Source: a virus. From it: 44,699 bases of DNA. Below the pieces are notes generated by a model. The model searched no databases and had not been told where the DNA came from. It saw nothing but the letters and a program-made list of their open reading frames with translations. The stretch lies in the IMG/VR virus record IMGVR_UViG_3300018005_000022, positions 1 to 44,699 of that record. One strand, 5' to 3'. A program made the translations under genes and the position numbers. Each line of letters begins with the position of its first letter. Position 1 is the first letter of the stretch. Below, piece after piece: positions 2,906 through 38,852 of the stretch.

Positions 2906-3562
2906 ATGAGCAAGACAAAAACTCATCAAAGTTATAAAACCAAAAACGGTATTAAATGCGTTGGCGTAACAACTGTTTTATCTCTATTGAATAAGCCAGC
3001 ATTGCTATACTGGGCGTGGGATTTAGGGTGTAAAGGGATTGATTATAGAAAGTTTGCTGATGATAAAGCGGCGCAGGGAACCCTAGCACATGACATGATA
3101 CTCTGCCATTTATCCGGCACACAAGCCGATACTTCCGATTATTCCAAGAATCAGATTGACGCGGCAGAAAATTCTTTTCTTTCCTATCTTGAATGGGAAA
3201 AGGGGAAAGTCATTAAGCCGATCATGCTTGAAGCGCAAATGGTTCATGAAGAACTACACTATGGCGGCACATTCGATTTTTTTGGTGAGGTTGATGGTGT
3301 TCCTACCCTCATTGACTTTAAAACCGGAAAAGCAATTTACGAGGAAATGGCTATTCAACTGGCGGCGTATAGCAGATTATATGATGCCTATATTAATTAC
3401 GATAAAGTAATTGATAAGCATTTAATCCTCCGCATAGGGCGTGATGAATCAGAGGGGTTTGAAGTTAAAGAATACAGCCGAGAATATATAGAAACCTGTT
3501 GGGAGTTATTTAATCATCTATTACAAGTCTATTGGCTTAAAAATAAAATAAAGAAGAAATAA
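2906..3562 (+). CDS. PD-(D/E)XK phage exonuclease (218 aa)
   Basis: Key residues fit the RecB/Cas4-like nuclease core: His62 (GTLAH), Glu109, Asp124 (GGTFD), the signature Asp137-x-Lys139 (LIDFKTGK), and a QxxxY motif (Gln151, Tyr155). Phage members resect dsDNA ends 5'-3' to give a 3' single strand for annealing. The next two genes encode an annealing-type protein and a NinB-like protein, so this is a recombination/replication-repair module. The AAGGAG ribosome-binding site lies in the right copy of the 55-bp repeat. Confidence 0.85.
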   Translation: MSKTKTHQSYKTKNGIKCVGVTTVLSLLNKPALLYWAWDLGCKGIDYRKFADDKAAQGTLAHDMILCHLSGTQADTSDYSKNQIDAAENSFLSYLEWEKGKVIKPIMLEAQMVHEELHYGGTFDFFGEVDGVPTLIDFKTGKAIYEEMAIQLAAYSRLYDAYINYDKVIDKHLILRIGRDESEGFEVKEYSREYIETCWELFNHLLQVYWLKNKIKKK

Positions 3563-3563
3563 T

Positions 3564-4286
3564 ATGGATAAAAAACAGGGATTGGAATTATTAAGAGAAC
3601 CTTTTTTGCCTAATCAGATAAGTAAACTGCCCAAAGGAACAAAGGCGCAAAATGAATGCCCTGCCAATGAAAAGGTAAAATGTAATATTTGTGGCGGATT
3701 CCATCATCCCAAAGTAATACACCTTGATTATGTCGGCCATGCTGCCCTGACTGATAGATTACTTGATTGTGACCCTTTATGGAATTGGGAGCCTTTTGCG
3801 TTGGAAGAAGGCCTGCCAAAATTTGATGCTCAAGGCGGTTTGTGGGTTAAGTTAACAGTATGCGGACATTCAAGACCGGGATATGGAAATGCAGAAAAAT
3901 CACAATGGAAAACCGTAGGAGATAGAGAAAAAGAGGTTATTGGCGATGCCTTGAGAAATGCGGCTATGAGATTTGGGGCGGCATTGGATTTATGGCATAA
4001 AGGCGACCTCCATATAGATGAAGATGGAAAAACAACACCAGCGGCAACGTCAGAAGAAATATCGCCAAAAACTGAAGCGGTGCCGGATAAGCCGGAAGAA
4101 AAGGAATCTTGTATAACTGAAAAACAGGCAAAAAGATTGTTCGCTATTTCTATGGGGGCAGGGTGGTCAAATAACGAATTAAAAGCTTACCTTTCCCAAA
4201 AATACGGCGTGGAAAAGAGCAATCAGGTCAAAACAAGCGACTACGAAACGATTTGCAAGTATATTGAGGACAATAAGCGAATATGA
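3564..4286 (+). CDS. Rad52-like single-strand annealing protein (240 aa)
   Basis: The N-terminal two thirds show features of phage Rad52-superfamily annealing proteins: VGHAALTDRLLDCDPLWNWE (about residues 53-72), a glycine-bearing beta region, and a KEVIGDALRNAAMRFGAALD helix. There is a possible metal-binding CNIC..HH near residue 41. The C-terminal about 60 residues are a separate helical tail, as in many annealing proteins. It lies immediately after the exonuclease, which is its expected partner. The exact subfamily is uncertain. Confidence 0.75.
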   Translation: MDKKQGLELLREPFLPNQISKLPKGTKAQNECPANEKVKCNICGGFHHPKVIHLDYVGHAALTDRLLDCDPLWNWEPFALEEGLPKFDAQGGLWVKLTVCGHSRPGYGNAEKSQWKTVGDREKEVIGDALRNAAMRFGAALDLWHKGDLHIDEDGKTTPAATSEEISPKTEAVPDKPEEKESCITEKQAKRLFAISMGAGWSNNELKAYLSQKYGVEKSNQVKTSDYETICKYIEDNKRI

Positions 4287-12841: not shown

Positions 12842-15800
12842 TTATACATTCACAACGGCTGCTGCCGGTACTGGTGCGGCTAACGCCATTATTCCTGACT
12901 GAATAAGAGCATTGCTAATAGCGACAACCGCATCTGTTCCCCAAAAATAAATTTGTACCAATGTTCCCACAGATACCGAAACACTTGGAATTACTATATC
13001 AAAATAATCATGGAACAGTCCAAGATTTTCTAAATAATAAGAACTCCCATAAGGTACACCATTCAAATAAAGTTGCGCGTACATACGCACCCACGGGTTA
13101 TATGGATACCCTAATCTAAAACTAACTTGCACTTGCCCTACTTGCGTCATTGTCCATTGTCTGGCGAGGACAGGCGTAGTGGAAGTACCATTCACTTGAG
13201 TAGCCGCTGAACCAATAGTATAATTTGTTCCTGATGTTAATAAACAGTTCAGTTGCGCCGGATTCAATAAAACCCAATAATGATGATTGGAATCATAAAC
13301 TAGAAACATCGCAGACGAAGCCTGTATGTCTCCCACCATCAACACAAATCCGCCCGGCCTGACTATGGGATAGGGTGTACCGGAATTATAAGCAAGAGTT
13401 GGTGTGGGTGTAGTATTAGAATAAGAAGTGAAAATTTGGACAGAAAGGGTATTTACCAACGGGAACCCAGGAATGCTGACTGTAAGAGCATCCGATGTGC
13501 CCCCTGCCGTGCCGCTTATAAAATCAGCGCCATTCGCGCCAGCTTGCCCTACCTCGACTAGTAAGTCCCAAAATGATCCGTTAGTTGGTAAATTACCAGT
13601 AGTGGTAGCGATACAGATATAAGAGGAACCTTGGTAACTAACCGCATCATTTACATGATAGGTTTGTGAGCCGCTATAAACTCCCTGCCAGACCACTCCG
13701 TTAATGCCATTTGAACCGTTTGTGCCCGCCTCTACTAGCAAGTCCCAATAGGTTCCATTTGTGGGTAAATTCCCCGTAGTATCAGCAATGCAAACAAAAG
13801 AAGAACCGTTATACGATACCGCATCATTCGGTACATAGGGAGTTAAATTGTTGTAAGTTCCTAACCATATCAATCCCCCTTGCCCAATTTCCGCTATCAA
13901 ATCCCAGTACGTGCCATTCGTAGGTACATTTCCCGTTGAGGTCAGAATACAAATATACGAAGAACCCTGATAGGAAACTGCATCATTAACGGCGTAGGCC
14001 GTACTACCATTGTATGCACCTTTCCAATTAAGCCCCGCAATTCCATTCTGTCCGTTTTGCCCGACCTCCACCAACAGATTCCAGTACGTACCATTGGTAG
14101 GTACATTATTTATGGATTGCAAAATACAAATATAGGATGAACCTTGATAAGAGACAGCATTACCCGGTACATAGTTTATTGAACTGGAATATGCCCCTCT
14201 CCAAACTAATCCAGCTTGACCTACTTCCGCTAAAATATCCCAGTAAGTCGGGTTTGAGGGCGAATTGCCTGTCGTGGCGGCTATCGCAATATAAGAAGAG
14301 CCGTTGTATGAAACTGCATCGCCTATAGCATAGGCTGTCCCTGCGTTATATGCTCCTTTCCAATTTAATCCTGCGATACCGTTTTCACCGTTAGTACCAG
14401 CCTCGACTAACAGATTCCAGTACGTGCCATCCGTGGGGATATTCCCAGTAGAAGCTAAAATACAAATGTAGGAAGAACCATTGTACGATACCGCATTACC
14501 GATAGAGTAAGCCGTACCATTATCATACGCCCCCCTCCAAACAATGCCGCCCTGACCAACTTCCGCTAATAAATCCCAGTAGGTCTGGTTTGTAGGCACG
14601 TTACCAGTGGAAGCCAAAATACAAATATAAGATGAACCCTGATATATTACTGCATCACCGGGGGCGTAAGTTGTCCCTCCTGAATAAGCTCCACGCCATA
14701 CCAATCCGGGTATGCCTTGTTCTCCGGCAGCACCGACTTCGACTAAAAGATTCCAGTACGTGCCATTTGTTGGCAAGTTTCCCGTGGTAGGAACTATACA
14801 GATGTAAGATGACCCCGAATATGAAACAGCATCTCCATCTGCATAAGCTGTTGACCCATTATAAGCTCCCCGCCATACTAAACCAGCTTGTCCTTCTTCA
14901 ACAAGCATATCCCAATAGGTTTGATTTGTCGGATCGTGTCCAGTCGTATTTTGAATACAAATATAAGACGAGCCTAAATACGAAACAGCATCGTTGACAA
15001 CATACACAACGGCGGCATTGTAAACGCCCTGCCATTGAAGTCCCGCAATACCATTTGTACCATTTACACCCGATTCAACAAGTAAATTCCAATGTGTGCC
15101 ATCGGTAGGTAAATTGCCCGTTGAAGCAAGTATGCAGATATAGGACGATCCATTATATGAAACTGCATTGCCTATGACATAAGCCGTGCTTCCATTATAA
15201 GGACCTAACCAAACTATACCGCCCTGCCCGACTTCCGCAAGTAGGTCCCAATAAGTGCCGTTAGTGGGGAGGTTGCCTGTTGAAGAAAGAATACAAATGT
15301 ACGAAGAGCCTTGATAATAAACGGCATCGCCGATAGAATAAGCTGTGCTGCCCGAATAGACTCCTTTCCAAACAAGACCTGGAACTCCTTGATCTCCGGC
15401 CTGACCAACCGCAACAAGCAAGTTCCAATATGTCCCATTGGTTGGAAGATTCCCAGTTGTAGCTTCGATACAAATATACGATGATCCATCATAGGATACA
15501 GCATCGTTCTGTGCATAAGCAGTTGAACCGGAATATGCCCCCCTCCATACCAAACCTTGAGTGCCACTGGTTCCAGCTTGAACTAGTAAATTCCAGAAGG
15601 AAGGATTGGTAGGCAAATTCCCAGTTGTTGTCGCTATACAGACATAGGATGAACCTTCATAATAAACGACATCATTTGCTAAATAAGTAACCGACCCCGA
15701 ATAAGTTCCCTTCCATACTAGACCCGGTTCTCCAGGAGTACCTTGTCCTGAAAGTATCATCAATGCAAAATGAGAAGTATCGCTTTCAGGTAATGTTGTG

Positions 15801-16375
15801 GAATTGGTAATGGCGAGAATACAATTATAAACGCCAGTTGAATCTTCTACTACATCATAAGCCGCATAATTATGTCCGCTTACCCATGCCCCACGCCAGT
15901 TGAAGCCCTGTCCTGCTGGTCCCTGAGTTCCTGTTCCACCAGAAAGCATCAGTGCAAAATGTGTGGAATCACTACTAGGAATAGTTGTGGAATCCGTAAT
16001 AGCGACAATGCAAATGTAAACTCCGGTTGAATATGAGACTAAATCATAGTAGTCATAATTATCTCCGCTTGTCCATGCGCCGCGCCAATTTAAAAGTGTG
16101 GGAGGGAAAAATCCCAGTTCATCCCATGTATTAATAACTTCCCCGTTGGAATCAGTTACAACGAATTTATATAGTCCATTAGCATATATCTGTGCCTGAC
16201 CATTGGTGTCCAATACGATAGGATTTTCTGCCGGAATCGTTAAATCCTGATCTAAAAAAGTCGCTAATGGAGTTGTCGTCCCCGCGATATATGTATAAAC
16301 CAATCCCCCATTCAAGGGATTCCCTGAAGTGTCATGCAAACCTGAAAGTAAAAAATCCACGCATAAATTATTCAT
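12842..16375 (-). CDS. Giant tail fibre with 15 carbohydrate-binding-like repeats (1177 aa)
   Basis: Residues 1-90 are a typical fibre N-terminus (NGGLVYTYIAGTTTPLATF, then NPIVLDTNGQAQIYANGLYK), which attaches to the virion. Residues 96-949 hold 15 tandem units of about 53-63 residues with conserved W.G.Y, Y..GDAVSY.GSSYICI, TGN.PTN..YW.LL. This is a CBM5/12-like (chitin-type) fold with aromatic sugar-binding residues. The linkers carry collagen-like Gly-X-Y triplets (GTQGPAG, GTPGEPG, GDQGVPG). Residues 950-1177 form a beta-rich C-terminal head resembling C1q/TNF-like trimers. Function: host surface recognition. Confidence 0.8.
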   Translation of the reverse strand: MNNLCVDFLLSGLHDTSGNPLNGGLVYTYIAGTTTPLATFLDQDLTIPAENPIVLDTNGQAQIYANGLYKFVVTDSNGEVINTWDELGFFPPTLLNWRGAWTSGDNYDYYDLVSYSTGVYICIVAITDSTTIPSSDSTHFALMLSGGTGTQGPAGQGFNWRGAWVSGHNYAAYDVVEDSTGVYNCILAITNSTTLPESDTSHFALMILSGQGTPGEPGLVWKGTYSGSVTYLANDVVYYEGSSYVCIATTTGNLPTNPSFWNLLVQAGTSGTQGLVWRGAYSGSTAYAQNDAVSYDGSSYICIEATTGNLPTNGTYWNLLVAVGQAGDQGVPGLVWKGVYSGSTAYSIGDAVYYQGSSYICILSSTGNLPTNGTYWDLLAEVGQGGIVWLGPYNGSTAYVIGNAVSYNGSSYICILASTGNLPTDGTHWNLLVESGVNGTNGIAGLQWQGVYNAAVVYVVNDAVSYLGSSYICIQNTTGHDPTNQTYWDMLVEEGQAGLVWRGAYNGSTAYADGDAVSYSGSSYICIVPTTGNLPTNGTYWNLLVEVGAAGEQGIPGLVWRGAYSGGTTYAPGDAVIYQGSSYICILASTGNVPTNQTYWDLLAEVGQGGIVWRGAYDNGTAYSIGNAVSYNGSSYICILASTGNIPTDGTYWNLLVEAGTNGENGIAGLNWKGAYNAGTAYAIGDAVSYNGSSYIAIAATTGNSPSNPTYWDILAEVGQAGLVWRGAYSSSINYVPGNAVSYQGSSYICILQSINNVPTNGTYWNLLVEVGQNGQNGIAGLNWKGAYNGSTAYAVNDAVSYQGSSYICILTSTGNVPTNGTYWDLIAEIGQGGLIWLGTYNNLTPYVPNDAVSYNGSSFVCIADTTGNLPTNGTYWDLLVEAGTNGSNGINGVVWQGVYSGSQTYHVNDAVSYQGSSYICIATTTGNLPTNGSFWDLLVEVGQAGANGADFISGTAGGTSDALTVSIPGFPLVNTLSVQIFTSYSNTTPTPTLAYNSGTPYPIVRPGGFVLMVGDIQASSAMFLVYDSNHHYWVLLNPAQLNCLLTSGTNYTIGSAATQVNGTSTTPVLARQWTMTQVGQVQVSFRLGYPYNPWVRMYAQLYLNGVPYGSSYYLENLGLFHDYFDIVIPSVSVSVGTLVQIYFWGTDAVVAISNALIQSGIMALAAPVPAAAVVNV
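13529..16090 (-). repeat. 15-unit protein repeat with four-unit higher-order period
   Basis: Units are 63, 61 and 56 residues long, then alternate 59/53. Linker types recur every four units: units 5, 9 and 13 end in a QGG(I/L) linker; 6, 10 and 14 in NG.NGI.G; 7 and 11 in QAGL; 4 and 8 in a Q..G.PGL-type linker. This indicates three copies of a roughly 224-residue (672-bp) block (units 4-7, 8-11, 12-15). Confidence 0.8.
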
Positions 16376-34164: not shown

Positions 34165-36207
34165 TTATTGCTGCGTTCCTTTCATAGCTTGCGCCATCGC
34201 CTTGTGTTGAGCGGCCTCATTCAAATAAATAAATCCCAGATGTTCCCTTGTATGGGCTTCCAATAACTTCTTGCCATGCGGTGTCAACTGGTCGTGATAA
34301 TTTGAAGCCTTGAACCCGTCATGCACAGTAACATGCTCATGGTGGTTCTGGTGAGGAAGCGCCGGAGTAATGGTATCTTTTATCAACATGGAGTTTTCTT
34401 GTTCCGGTTGCAGATCGGGAGGTGGAGGAGGTGGTCCGGGCTTCTTCAAAATGGATTCGATGTTCGGAGCTTCGAGGGCTTCAAGATATTCCTTAGTTGC
34501 GTAATACATGCTTTCGGGGTTCTGCATCATCAAGGGATTTGTCTTGGCTTCCTGAAGCACCTGTTGGCTCTTTATCAGTTTTTCCGCCCTGCTGGTAATA
34601 TTCGGGTCGGAAACCGGAATCACCATCACATTGCTGGCAAAATCATTCTTTCCGCTTTCGATGGACTTCCACTCCTGAGAGGTCTTGTCCTGAACCAAAG
34701 CATAAACTTTTTCATCAAGGACATCATGGTCAATATCGAATATCTTTTTAAGTTCCTGTCTGAATGATCTGTGGAGCCTTTTCTGAATGACTGAGAATAC
34801 CTTCAATCCCTGTTCGATGACCGCAAGCATCGTAGTAGCAGCGGTATCCGAGGGAGGCATAGCGCCGGACATCCATTCGGAAGTAGTCGTGGTTTCCTTC
34901 ACATAATCGTGAAGCATACCGATTATCATAAAAAGTATGCGGGAGGGTTCCTTGAACTGGAACTGGTAGATAGCGTTCCTAATGTCGGGAGCCATGACAT
35001 CCACTTCCTTAAAGACACCCATTTCAAAACCGAGGTCGCCTTTTTTCAGTCCCGCTCTCTTGTTAATGAATCCCGCGATTATGTTATTCAGATGACCGGC
35101 ATCGAGCAACTGATTCAGGGCTGTGTCGGCGGCTTCATTCATGTGGTCGAGCAACTGCCCGAATCCGAAGGCATAAACCGAATTGGGATTGGGAATAAAA
35201 CTGTATCCGGTGAAGTATTCTTCTATCTTGTCTCTGCTGTGGTCTTCGTCCCATGAAAGCCTGGAAACTATTCTTAGAACTTTTTGGCTGGTGTAATCCA
35301 CCGTGACTATGTATGGACGCATCCTGCCGTCTTTTTTCTTCAGTTTCTTTTCTTTGTATTCGTAGTTTAAGTCAAGGTAGACATGCTGCTCTAAAAGTTT
35401 TCTTTTGTTGGTAAATTCCTCATCGGGTTCCTGCACCCCCTCAGTTTTATCCTGCATGTCTCTGGTTTCCGGCATGTTCCCGTCAACTCTATTGCTTTCA
35501 GGACTCAGTACCAGACCTTCAGGTTTCAGGTATATCTTCTTGTCCTGAAGTTCCTCGATCTTGTCTATTTCCTTCCAGATAATATGGGTCTTTCTCAACC
35601 GCGGGTCGTTAAGGCTTCTGGCCTTGTAATTGACCACGAACTCATCCACGGTGAGAAACTTGGATACGGGTTGCTTGTTCTCGTAATCAGGATAGGTTTT
35701 TTTAACTACAAAACCGTCAATGGGAAGCGCCATGAGAAGCTTATCCATGTCCTCTTCCCAGTCAGTCATTTCATACCTTAACTGGTAGTTCATGTAGTTT
35801 TCTGTGCGTTTGGCTTTGTCCCTTTGGGTTCCATCACGGGTATAGCATTTTACTATATCTTTTCCTAAGAGGGCTTCGTAAGCTCTGGCCTGAAACTGTA
35901 GACAGGCCACTAGAATGAAGGGCAAATGGGTATTGGCGGCTTTCGGCCAGGGGTAGTCTTTGGGTTCCCTGTATCCGGCGAACATTTTCAGCCAGAGGGC
36001 GCGGCGCTTGTCAAATTCGGTACGAGAATCTATATCGGAATCAAAAGCCTCGACAACTTCAGAACCTATCTTATCAAGGTCTTCTTTCTTTATTTTAGCG
36101 GCAATATTTACTTCTTCGACAGGGGTATCGTTAATCCCGTCAAACAGTTCATCAATACCCGGTAACTGCCGATCTGCCTCTGTCGTCTCTGTAGTATTCG
36201 GTCCCAT
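34165..36207 (-). CDS. Portal protein, P22-like group (680 aa)
   Basis: It has the length and motifs of large portals: YPWPKAANTHLPFILVACLQ (N-terminal wing), GYSFIPNPNSVYAFGFGQLL and MNEAADTALNQLLDAG (stem and crown region), SEWMSGAMPPSDTAATTMLA, then a Pro-rich linker and a His/Gln-rich helical tail. Twelve copies form the DNA channel at the capsid vertex and bind terminase and the gp4-like adaptor. Its start overlaps the terminase end by 56 bases. It has a GAGGTAG ribosome-binding site. Confidence 0.85.
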   Translation of the reverse strand: MGPNTTETTEADRQLPGIDELFDGINDTPVEEVNIAAKIKKEDLDKIGSEVVEAFDSDIDSRTEFDKRRALWLKMFAGYREPKDYPWPKAANTHLPFILVACLQFQARAYEALLGKDIVKCYTRDGTQRDKAKRTENYMNYQLRYEMTDWEEDMDKLLMALPIDGFVVKKTYPDYENKQPVSKFLTVDEFVVNYKARSLNDPRLRKTHIIWKEIDKIEELQDKKIYLKPEGLVLSPESNRVDGNMPETRDMQDKTEGVQEPDEEFTNKRKLLEQHVYLDLNYEYKEKKLKKKDGRMRPYIVTVDYTSQKVLRIVSRLSWDEDHSRDKIEEYFTGYSFIPNPNSVYAFGFGQLLDHMNEAADTALNQLLDAGHLNNIIAGFINKRAGLKKGDLGFEMGVFKEVDVMAPDIRNAIYQFQFKEPSRILFMIIGMLHDYVKETTTTSEWMSGAMPPSDTAATTMLAVIEQGLKVFSVIQKRLHRSFRQELKKIFDIDHDVLDEKVYALVQDKTSQEWKSIESGKNDFASNVMVIPVSDPNITSRAEKLIKSQQVLQEAKTNPLMMQNPESMYYATKEYLEALEAPNIESILKKPGPPPPPPDLQPEQENSMLIKDTITPALPHQNHHEHVTVHDGFKASNYHDQLTPHGKKLLEAHTREHLGFIYLNEAAQHKAMAQAMKGTQQ

Positions 36208-38692
36208 CTTCTACCTCTTCTTCCCACTGCCTGTTGATTAACGCATATCTGTAAAGGTTCTCGCAAAAATCGTCTTCCACTTTGGAAGGCTTCAATGTCT
36301 TGGGGTCAATGACGTAATTTTCGATTTGTTCAATGCTCTTCTTCAGGTCGGAGAAAAAGAAAAGCGAGGGCATCTCGTTCTCGCTCATAAGCATTTCCTC
36401 GACCAGTTTGATTCCGTTGTCCTTGTCCTTGGAAGCCACCTGCAAATAGATGTCGTGAGAGGCGAATACATCGGACATGATTTGAAACACGGTCTCATCG
36501 GTGTATCCTGAATTAACATCCCCCTTGGCCAGGGGGTCAATCCATATCCCACCTACTCTCAAAGAGTTGTCTATCAGGACTTTCAGTATCCTTTCAGCCA
36601 TTGCCTTGGAATTTCCATGATCCCATATCTCGGCAACCTGCCAATGGAAGCCCCTGGGTTCTGTGGCATAGAAACTAATAGCCCACGGTTTAGAGGGATG
36701 AAAATCAATCAGGACATCAATGATCCAATCCAAGGGTATGCCGTTCTTAAATCTCGGTTTGATATGAATCCTCCGGTCTATGTTCCAAATAAGACTTGAT
36801 AAATACGAGGGTTTCCCCCGTAGTCTGGCTTCCCGTTCATCGGGACTCAGGGTTTTCTCAAACTGCCGAACCCCGTCCATTGTAAGACCAAATCTTTTAT
36901 AATTGGTGACTTCTCCGCATTTCGGGCATATTCCTACGGTTCCTGTGTCTCTGTCCTCAAACCTGTCTATGTAATCTCCGCACTCATTACAGACAGAAAC
37001 ATTATTCAAAATATCCGCATTGACCCCAAAAACAGAGGTATCGGGAGTCCCGTCCTCATTAGTAGCTCTGACGACTTCCTTCTGCACCCATGCTTCTTTT
37101 AACAGGGTCATGCCGAAATATTCCCTGCCGGAACGGTCTACGAGACCCCTGGCGCAAGCGACTCTAATTTCCCTAGAAGACGGTTCATCGTCAATCACCA
37201 AGTCCCCATTCCATCCTTCAAATAAATCAGCCCTCTGCCCGTTGGACATTATTTCAAGGGTGGAACCCGTCTTAACATCTTTCCAGAAATAATCTATCCC
37301 CTCATTGTTTTTTTTCTTTTCCACCTTCCGCGACTTTGGCCACCACTCTTCCAGCGCCGGAACAACAACTGTCTTGATATGCACTCCCCAGTCCTGCCCC
37401 ACAACCCTTATTTTTCTCGGCTGTTTATGGGGAAATTTCAACTTGATACTTGAATCCCAAGGGTAGTACCCGAACATCGTGGCAATCGCCAGCCACACCC
37501 ATGTAGTTGTCTTCGCCGAATTATGATTAATCAATCCACCTGTATAATAGTTGTGATATTTAGGCACTTCAAAATCAAATACCTCTTGACAGGTGGAAAT
37601 AGGTGTGATAGATACAATACCATTAACGCCACTAAAAGGAGATATATATGAGCCAGAAGAGAATTGTTGATGTAAATCAGTTAAGGGATTTGATCGAAGT
37701 TCAGAAACTTCAACACCGCATAGTTGCGAAGATAACCGGAATACCGGTGAAGAAGATGACAAAGTTTTGCCGACGATACGGAATAAAGACTCAAAGGACT
37801 GGTCCAAGGAACGCTGAGCTTCACCCATCTTGGAAAGGAGGCCGGACGATTTCAAAAGGGTATGTAAATATTTACTACCCCGACCATCCTTACGCAAACA
37901 AGCAGCACTATGTTCGTGAACACCGTCTCGTAATGGAAAAGAAATTAGGCCGTTATCTTCTACCACATGAGGTTGTCCATCATATAGACGGCAATCGTGG
38001 GAATAATGATCCAGGTAATTTGATAGTCTTTCAGACAAATGCACAACACCTGAAGGTTGAACTGACAGGTCATGTTCCAAATTGGACACCGGAAGGAAAG
38101 ATGGCGATTGCGGATGCCCAAAAGAAAATAACTCCTGAAATGCGTAAAGAACATGCAAAGAGGCGCACATTAACCGTTGAGGGAAAAAAGAAAATATCCC
38201 TTGCTGTGATCGCTTCAAACAAACGCAGGAGTCGTAAATCCATTGAACCGGAAGCCAACCATGATTTGTCAAAATCCGATGACCACAAGCGGCCGTTATA
38301 GTTTGTCCGTCTACCATTTCAACCCTATAACACTTGTGGAGACCTTCTTTTTTAAACGGAGCGGAGGCCTCTACTTTTATTCTTTCCTTACCATTCCACG
38401 CATAACAGGTGAAAGATAAACCCCTTTCGTATAATTCTCCTATTGAAATTTTACCACCCCATGTTTGTATAAGTGTATCAGCTGTTAAACAACGATTCCC
38501 CCCTGTAAAATAAAATATTTTATACTGGGGATTCAGCCATGCCTCCAGCATCTCCGCTTGTTTAGGATTCGGATTGTTCGGCACAAACTCGATCTTATTC
38601 TCTTGGGCAAGTCTCTCCGCCAAAGAAAGCAATTCAACCTTCTTCTGCTTCAGTTCAACCAGCTTGGCCTGAATTTCCCCGATGCTATCCAC
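36152..38692 (-). CDS. terL: Terminase large subunit interrupted by an intein (846 aa precursor)
   Basis: I choose GTG at 38692, which overlaps the stop of the 55-aa gene upstream; an ATG at 38740 is the alternative. The Walker A motif reads GGNR, then the intein, then SAKTTTW. Walker B is LVIDDEP (about residues 498-504 of the precursor). A CNEC/CPKC zinc pair and a nuclease-type region (WIIDVLIDFHPSKPWAISFY, GIWIDPLAKGD) follow. Without the intein the protein is about 522 residues, normal for TerL. Splicing would be essential, since the intein splits the ATP-binding loop. TerL packages DNA through the portal encoded next. Confidence 0.88.
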   Translation of the reverse strand: MDSIGEIQAKLVELKQKKVELLSLAERLAQENKIEFVPNNPNPKQAEMLEAWLNPQYKIFYFTGGNRCLTADTLIQTWGGKISIGELYERGLSFTCYAWNGKERIKVEASAPFKKEGLHKCYRVEMVDGQTITAACGHRILTNHGWLPVQWIYDSCVCLKRSQQGIFSFFPQRLMCASLHVLYAFQELFSFGHPQSPSFLPVSNLEHDLSVQPSGVVHLSERLSNYLDHYSHDCRLYDGQPHVVEDNGLISFPLRDGVHEHSAACLRKDGRGSKYLHTLLKSSGLLSKMGEAQRSLDQSFESLFRIVGKTLSSSSPVFRLSSQLCGVEVSELRSNPLTDLHQQFSSGSYISPFSGVNGIVSITPISTCQEVFDFEVPKYHNYYTGGLINHNSAKTTTWVWLAIATMFGYYPWDSSIKLKFPHKQPRKIRVVGQDWGVHIKTVVVPALEEWWPKSRKVEKKKNNEGIDYFWKDVKTGSTLEIMSNGQRADLFEGWNGDLVIDDEPSSREIRVACARGLVDRSGREYFGMTLLKEAWVQKEVVRATNEDGTPDTSVFGVNADILNNVSVCNECGDYIDRFEDRDTGTVGICPKCGEVTNYKRFGLTMDGVRQFEKTLSPDEREARLRGKPSYLSSLIWNIDRRIHIKPRFKNGIPLDWIIDVLIDFHPSKPWAISFYATEPRGFHWQVAEIWDHGNSKAMAERILKVLIDNSLRVGGIWIDPLAKGDVNSGYTDETVFQIMSDVFASHDIYLQVASKDKDNGIKLVEEMLMSENEMPSLFFFSDLKKSIEQIENYVIDPKTLKPSKVEDDFCENLYRYALINRQWEEEVEDGTEYYRDDRGRSAVTGY
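37586..37614 (+). promoter_or_regulatory. Possible promoter for the antisense HNH gene
   Basis: A perfect TTGACA (37586-37591) is followed 17 bases later by TAGATA; a better TACAAT (37613-37618) is at 21 bases. It lies in the DNA that encodes intein block F on the other strand, 34 bases or more before the HNH start. The -10 is weak. Confidence 0.35.
37648..38301 (+). CDS. HNH homing endonuclease encoded antisense within the intein (217 aa)
   Basis: It lies wholly inside the intein on the other strand. AAAGGAG ends six bases before the ATG. Residues about 11-45 look like a DNA-binding helix-turn-helix. The HNH_3-type core runs 88-134: EHRLVMEKKLGRYL, VVHHIDGNRGNNDPGNLIVF, NAQHL. The C-terminus (150-195) is basic and NUMOD-like (TPEGKMAIADAQKK, VEGKKKISLAVIAS). 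The last about 20 codons overlap intein block B in antisense. Its likely job is cutting intein-less terL alleles so the intein is copied. This is a real gene, not a shadow, by its domain, RBS and length. Confidence 0.85.
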   Translation: MSQKRIVDVNQLRDLIEVQKLQHRIVAKITGIPVKKMTKFCRRYGIKTQRTGPRNAELHPSWKGGRTISKGYVNIYYPDHPYANKQHYVREHRLVMEKKLGRYLLPHEVVHHIDGNRGNNDPGNLIVFQTNAQHLKVELTGHVPNWTPEGKMAIADAQKKITPEMRKEHAKRRTLTVEGKKKISLAVIASNKRRSRKSIEPEANHDLSKSDDHKRPL

Positions 38693-38852
38693 GTCTCTTC
38701 TTCCTTGGCAGTCCCTTCTCTTTGGTCTTGGCGAAATCATGCAGCTGCTTCTTCGTCATGTCCGCCAAACCCTTATTCCTACCGTACAACTTGGATGGCG
38801 AATGTTCCGCTATAGCCATCGCTTTTCTTTGAGCTACTGATTTACTAGGCAT
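38685..38852 (-). CDS. Small basic phage protein (55 aa)
   Basis: It starts MPSKSVAQRKAMAIAEHSPS after a GGAG-type site and contains KLYGRNKGLADMTKKQLHDF and AKTKEKGLPRKKRRG, a pattern common to small phage proteins just upstream of terminase. It is strongly basic, so DNA binding is likely. Its end overlaps the GTG start of terL by eight bases, implying coupling. Confidence 0.7.
   Translation of the reverse strand: MPSKSVAQRKAMAIAEHSPSKLYGRNKGLADMTKKQLHDFAKTKEKGLPRKKRRG

Follow-up and report, generated by a model that had tools for sequence, protein, structure and literature searches.

A phage terminase intein with an HNH endonuclease gene on its opposite strand

The window analysed here is the whole 44,699-nucleotide stretch of viral DNA recorded as IMGVR_UViG_3300018005_000022 in IMG/VR. 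On its minus strand lies a gene for a large terminase subunit (TerL; 36152-38740), which encodes 862 aa without interruption, adjoins the portal gene, and has a C-terminal part similar to annotated large terminases. We found that this frame contains an intein of 324 aa (37520..38491, minus strand), which runs from Cys1 to a final His-Asn followed by a +1 Ser and is inserted as GGNR^SAKTT. The exact bounds follow from the junctions, GGNR^CLTADT...GLINHN^SAKTTT. As defined by the ORF and the junction, the N-extein (38492..38740, minus strand; TerL aa 1-83) ends in the Walker A/P-loop sequence ...TGGNR, and the C-extein (36152..37519, minus strand; 455 aa plus stop) begins with SAKTTT, the rest of the P-loop. 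Elsewhere, positions 12842-16375 of the window encode a repetitive protein of 1177 aa that resembles a tail fibre and in which matches to a single family recur up to 15 times. A tRNA scan of the window found none.

Within the 862-aa frame, the intein N-terminal domain model TIGR01445 matches aa 84-158 at 28.2 bits (cut-off 24.5), and the C-terminal domain model TIGR01443 matches aa 386-408 at 20.7 (cut-off 15.6). These correspond to two halves of a Hint domain. The N-terminal half (38222..38491, minus strand; residues 1-90) holds blocks A and B, with the block-B His at position 71, and the C-terminal half (37520..37621, minus strand; residues 291-324) holds blocks F and G. In an AlphaFold2 model, confidence is high in both halves (pLDDT 94-98 and 95-98, respectively) and mostly below 50 at residues 103-285. 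This middle part of the frame (37637..38185, minus strand) is open, unconserved and mostly antisense to a nuclease gene described below. The best PDB matches of the model are DnaB mini-inteins (E 4e-6), in keeping with a Hint fold. Residues C1, H71, D306, H323 and N324 are invariant in an alignment of 31 inteins from 31 lineages, and the features of a class 1-type Hint domain are all present: Cys1, a block-B His, a block-G His-Asn and a +1 Ser/Thr/Cys. From the intact catalytic residues and the essential nature of the host motif, we infer that the intein is self-splicing. It is not a split intein or fractured gene, as TerL is one continuous frame, nor does it meet the definition of a canonical homing intein with an in-frame endonuclease, as the nuclease is on the opposite strand.

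That nuclease gene (37648..38301, plus strand; 217 aa) has a Shine-Dalgarno sequence, AAGGAG (37636..37641, plus strand), 6 nt 5' of its ATG. Its product matches PF13392 (HNH_3) at 8.5e-9, above the gathering score, and the HNH endonuclease family phrog_20891 at 7.7e-27. It consists of an N-terminal helix-turn-helix (1-51), an HNH part (about 57-142) and a helical tail; an AlphaFold2 model (pLDDT 85) shows both the helix-turn-helix and the HNH part, and its best structural match is I-HmuI, which is weak (Foldseek E 0.37; Z 6.6). All 40 related HNH proteins examined match PF13392, and alignments of 40 and 38 members contain invariant HNH residues, among them E108, H112, N120, N124, N131 and H134. 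In the phase used, the first codon positions of the HNH and intein frames pair with each other, and HNH position 3 pairs with intein position 2. The last 25 or so HNH codons are also antisense to intein residues 64-88, which form the final part of the Hint N-terminal half and include block-B His71; the overlap thus extends beyond a spacer. Shine-Dalgarno sequences of at least 5 nt precede the gene in 24 of 38 HNH lineages, and also in 52 of 74, compared with 14% of control windows. A promoter scan 5' of the HNH gene gave nothing above chance, and we recognised none; we infer that expression of the nuclease would need its own plus-strand promoter or read-through. An initial annotation, made from the sequence alone, had proposed a complete HNH_3-type gene with a Shine-Dalgarno lying antisense within an open TerL-intein frame that has no endonuclease domain itself, and both parts of this claim held.

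The arrangement is not peculiar to the window. Its four closest HNH relatives in IMG/VR are all antisense in open TerL-intein frames. When an alignment of five HNHs was used as the query, 80 of the 80 closest IMG/VR relatives were found in TerL genes with the same layout and the same antisense phase, and two loci in TerL genes of metagenome-assembled genomes (MAGs) share both. A second HNH subfamily, reached via Pectobacterium phage Ymer and Pseudoalteromonas phage PHS3, showed the same layout at 80 of 80 IMG/VR loci. With the best 80 relatives taken per subfamily, the class comprises at least 160 related viral sequences; the related phages with the same opposite-strand pairing that would support the initial annotation thus exist. 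The cultured phages Ymer and PHS3 share this layout and its phase, and seven more Pectobacterium/Dickeya phage records are at least 91% identical to Ymer over the whole gene. Among the GenBank phage matches examined, only PHS3 and the Pectobacterium/Dickeya group show the layout. Free-standing bacterial HNHs mostly have no antisense open frame. An assembly artefact, which would have refuted the initial annotation, was considered and rejected, given that at least 160 independent contigs as well as cultured phage genomes carry the layout. The antisense HNH is also the reason for annotation errors in two GenBank records: in PHS3 (L162, KX912252.1), TerL is cut down to its C-extein and the HNH is called as a neighbour, and in Ymer (L161, OP748252.2), TerL is labelled "hypothetical protein" and the HNH is unannotated.

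The C-exteins of these loci are spread over several terminase families, and nearly every junction falls within Walker A, mainly as GGNR^SGKT, GNRxGK^T or GGxG^SGKS. The window's nearest HNH relatives (L005, L001 and L003) use the GK^T site, three codons from the site used in the window. Of 54 loci in the TerL family to which the window belongs, 11 have a P-loop intein with an antisense HNH and 42 have no P-loop intein; one member of the family, L299, has an ordinary-looking in-frame intein away from the P-loop. Another locus, L014 (1163-4927), encodes a TerL with two inteins, one of the antisense-HNH kind in the P-loop and, judging by eye, an apparently canonical LAGLIDADG-type intein further down.

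We also took a census that was independent of the HNH, using the intein N-blocks as query. This returned 89 loci, namely 74 with an antisense HNH, 14 HNH-less mini-inteins (about 130-142 aa) and one truncated by a contig end. No in-frame HNH was found in any of these 89 related inteins, and in-frame nucleases in homologues, which would have refuted the initial annotation, are therefore not supported. The Hint domain of L307, an intein of 315 aa with an antisense HNH, is 75-77% identical to those of the mini-inteins L310 and L305, and what sets L307 apart is the stretch with the antisense HNH, located between blocks B and F. The proposal that the nuclease gene entered an intein in reverse held in part: it fits this comparison, which does not show whether the block was gained or lost. 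Phage TerL mini-inteins of about 132-142 aa (L308, L310, L314, L338, L364, L368, L384 and L385) are possible small splicing tools.

Evidence that the element moves comes from alleles with and without it. L274 and L271 are the same phage sequence, with flanks that are 99.97% identical over 3347 bp downstream and 99.56% identical over 1365 bp upstream of the element, but L271 lacks the exact 885-bp element; L270 is likewise empty at this site. The intein-less homologues of the window, L262 and L298, have TerL proteins 88% and 87% identical to that of the window and read GGNR^SSKTT at the same site. In addition, many distant pairs are more alike in the HNH than in TerL (e.g. identities of 0.54-0.62 versus 0.25-0.31), as would be expected of a horizontally moving element. 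The precise presence and absence demonstrates gain or loss of the whole element, but it shows neither the direction nor a cutting step. Cleavage of the intein-less allele by the HNH protein, and the expression of that protein, are inferences. The window also contains, at 2906-4286 on the plus strand, genes for an exonuclease and a single-strand annealing protein, a recombination pair that may serve in the repair of breaks made during homing.

We then considered the claim that both frames have been kept open, which held. Keeping the HNH protein and its own codons while shuffling synonyms, we calculated that the window's HNH gene should have about 10 antisense stops in the phase used. It has 0, and 0 of 2000 synonymous permutations were free of stops. 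Across 39 HNH lineages (38 in TerL inteins, plus L094 in a methylase), we observed 0 antisense stops where 255 were expected; with TerL codon usage, the expectation was 239 (38 lineages where computable). By comparison, 75 free-standing HNHs had 418 antisense stops versus 472 expected, and the other two antisense phases of the same intein HNH genes had ordinary stop rates of 3.5 and 5.5 per 100 codons. A chance ORF is rejected by these counts. A preference for a phase that is easy to keep open is also rejected: in free-standing HNHs, the phase used has 4.4 stops per 100 codons, versus 3.5 in another phase. Since the used phase is not the lowest in stops, its use is better accounted for by common descent or by the way the gene was inserted, and the HNH tree does not decide between one and several origins.

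The two frames differ in what selection preserves. In 37 disjoint pairs, HNH differences at codon positions 1, 2 and 3 numbered 1436, 1169 and 2554, and in close pairs they numbered 198, 140 and 526. The identity of the antisense intein middle in the 37 disjoint pairs drops far below HNH identity and decays much faster; for instance, the HNHs of L001 and L002 are 86% identical and the antisense middles 52%. The codon-position pattern, together with the lower antisense identity, shows that the HNH frame is under purifying selection, while the intein middle drifts and is merely kept open. A lack of purifying selection in the HNH frame, the last of the three results that would have refuted the initial annotation, was thus not borne out. 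Where the HNH C-terminus of the second subfamily is antisense to the Hint N-domain, the intein shows 0.129 third-position changes per codon versus 0.432 in the extein, and the HNH and intein proteins are both 88-89% identical. Low third-position change with conservation of both proteins indicates that the same bases serve two proteins.

Several other explanations deserve consideration. The HNH could be a packaging-associated nuclease, like HK97 gp74, which works with the terminase at cos, and could be parked in terL for co-inheritance. HNH genes near terL are common, and whether they serve homing or packaging is debated, the two not being exclusive (PMC10448857); furthermore, all intein cases found here lie in the packaging gene. 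We nevertheless consider this unlikely, because the HNH and intein travel as one precise module inside the P-loop, the HNH is absent from otherwise near-identical phages and from related mini-inteins, and it resides in very different TerLs, as the identities above show. Less likely still is that the HNH does not act alone, with mobility provided by other nucleases in trans or by ordinary recombination and with the antisense gene mainly protecting or regulating terL, for example through antisense RNA. The lack of a recognised promoter, the expected effect of antisense transcription on terL and the phage's own exonuclease/annealing pair speak for this; however, purifying selection on the HNH codons and enrichment of Shine-Dalgarno sequences are as expected for a translated nuclease.

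Two further alternatives are all but ruled out. If only one frame were real, either the HNH would be a degenerate relic or the open antisense frame a chance by-product, and some genes do carry long antisense ORFs by chance. This is countered by the purifying selection on the HNH in the 37 disjoint pairs, the absolute stop avoidance in the 39 lineages, the near-expected stop numbers of free-standing homologues and the ordinary rates of the other antisense phases. Alternatively, the insert could be removed as an RNA intron and not by protein splicing, since phage terL genes can carry self-splicing introns, as in ICP1 (PMC10448857). The frame is open through the Hint blocks, however, all splicing residues are invariant in 31 lineages, and no Rfam match was found in the window.

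The best explanation, and in our judgement a likely one, is a homing intein with its endonuclease gene on the opposite strand. It rests on what has been shown, i.e. layout, conservation, stop avoidance, selection on the HNH, Shine-Dalgarno enrichment and precise presence/absence; splicing, cleavage, HNH transcription and homing are inferred. TerL would be translated from the minus strand through the whole insert, and the Hint halves (residues 1-90 and 291-324) would fold together around a long unstructured loop, excise themselves and restore the TerL P-loop. The plus strand would be transcribed separately and, from its own Shine-Dalgarno, would yield a free HTH-HNH nuclease. This nuclease would cut intein-less terL alleles at the P-loop, and repair from an intein-bearing copy would insert intein and nuclease together; we infer cutting and homing from the occurrence of alleles that differ exactly by the element and from its spread across unrelated TerLs. 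The intein middle would have no function of its own other than to remain stop-free. Any stop in that frame would abolish TerL, and HNH codons are therefore limited to those without antisense stops, a restriction that the counts show. Against the homing reading stand the absence of a recognised promoter, the weak I-HmuI match, the possibility that the alleles reflect loss, and a packaging role that is not excluded. The suggestion in the initial annotation that the layout separates nuclease expression from late terminase expression is plausible, but it is an untested inference for which no promoter was recognised.

Elements of this layout have precedents. Canonical homing inteins with an in-frame HNH domain are known, e.g. 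in the dCTP deaminase of cyanophage CL131 (PMC6293099), as are TerL inteins in the ATPase domain (Kelley et al. 2016, PMC5050341). The window's intein resembles them in its Hint domain, its nuclease between blocks B and F, its insertion in the TerL ATPase domain and its HNH_3-type nuclease, but their nucleases are in the same frame within the intein polypeptide, whereas here the nuclease is a separate opposite-strand gene with its own ribosome-binding site. The ShiLan domain, a hidden same-strand, out-of-frame HNH in a phage methylase (Arsenault et al. 2025, PMC11855218), likewise overlaps an open host frame, has a disjunct distribution and leaves a host-frame reading without known function. 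It has no splicing domain or detectable RBS, however, and is thought to be retained in the host protein; in the window, the HNH is on the opposite strand, Hint blocks are present and the intein would remove the loop, so the element is not of ShiLan type. Some nuclear group I introns carry antisense homing endonuclease genes, e.g. I-DsqI, that are expressed and active (PMC9548176). These too place a nuclease opposite the host-gene strand inside a self-removing element, but an RNA intron makes no demand for an open frame on the host strand, and here both strands must code. Finally, split inteins are reported to flank free-standing nuclease genes in "fractured genes" (Dassa et al. 2009), which share a nuclease gene apart from the intein polypeptide; the intein there is divided between two genes, whereas the window has a single uninterrupted frame antisense to the nuclease gene.

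The literature searched, which left out a possibly relevant preprint (Gosselin et al. bioRxiv 2025, doi 10.1101/2025.01.02.630785) whose title mentions "non-canonical architecture", yielded no description of a nuclease gene lying antisense within an intein. In-frame HNH inteins, out-of-frame ShiLan domains and antisense nucleases in group I introns are thus already known, and an antisense nuclease in an intein appears to be new, subject to a possible prior report; the initial annotation likewise named no described class with this layout. Two methylase loci show other overlaps. In a huge phage (L164, 1573-3927; LR756508.1), the middle of a DNA methylase gene contains an HNH ORF (L164:1946-2833) in a different frame of the same strand; going by the Hint-like blocks of the methylase, this is a second overlapping layout inside an intein. 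In a Nitrospira MAG (L094, 3004-3471), an HNH lies antisense to a methylase gene, with the phase seen in the TerL inteins, but no Hint blocks can be recognised; this resembles a ShiLan insertion placed on the other strand.

A bolder reading, towards which we lean without much assurance, is that these are widespread and old "antisense-nuclease inteins" specialised on the TerL P-loop, whose two strands have co-evolved: the HNH has been purged of antisense stops, and in one subfamily the HNH C-terminus and the functional Hint N-domain are both under constraint at shared base pairs. The antisense orientation may itself have been selected, e.g. for expression apart from the late terminase mRNA. The layout means that a distinct gene can reside on the other strand of a protein intron, and that intein surveys restricted to the host frame may overlook the nuclease and class these elements as lacking one; it also explains mis-annotated terminases in GenBank. 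The cultured phages and the near-identical phage sequences with and without the intein are suited to direct homing experiments. The class as a whole provides a large natural data set of antisense overlaps in which one frame is selected for its protein and the other is only kept open, and with it a clean way to test how overlapping genes are maintained.
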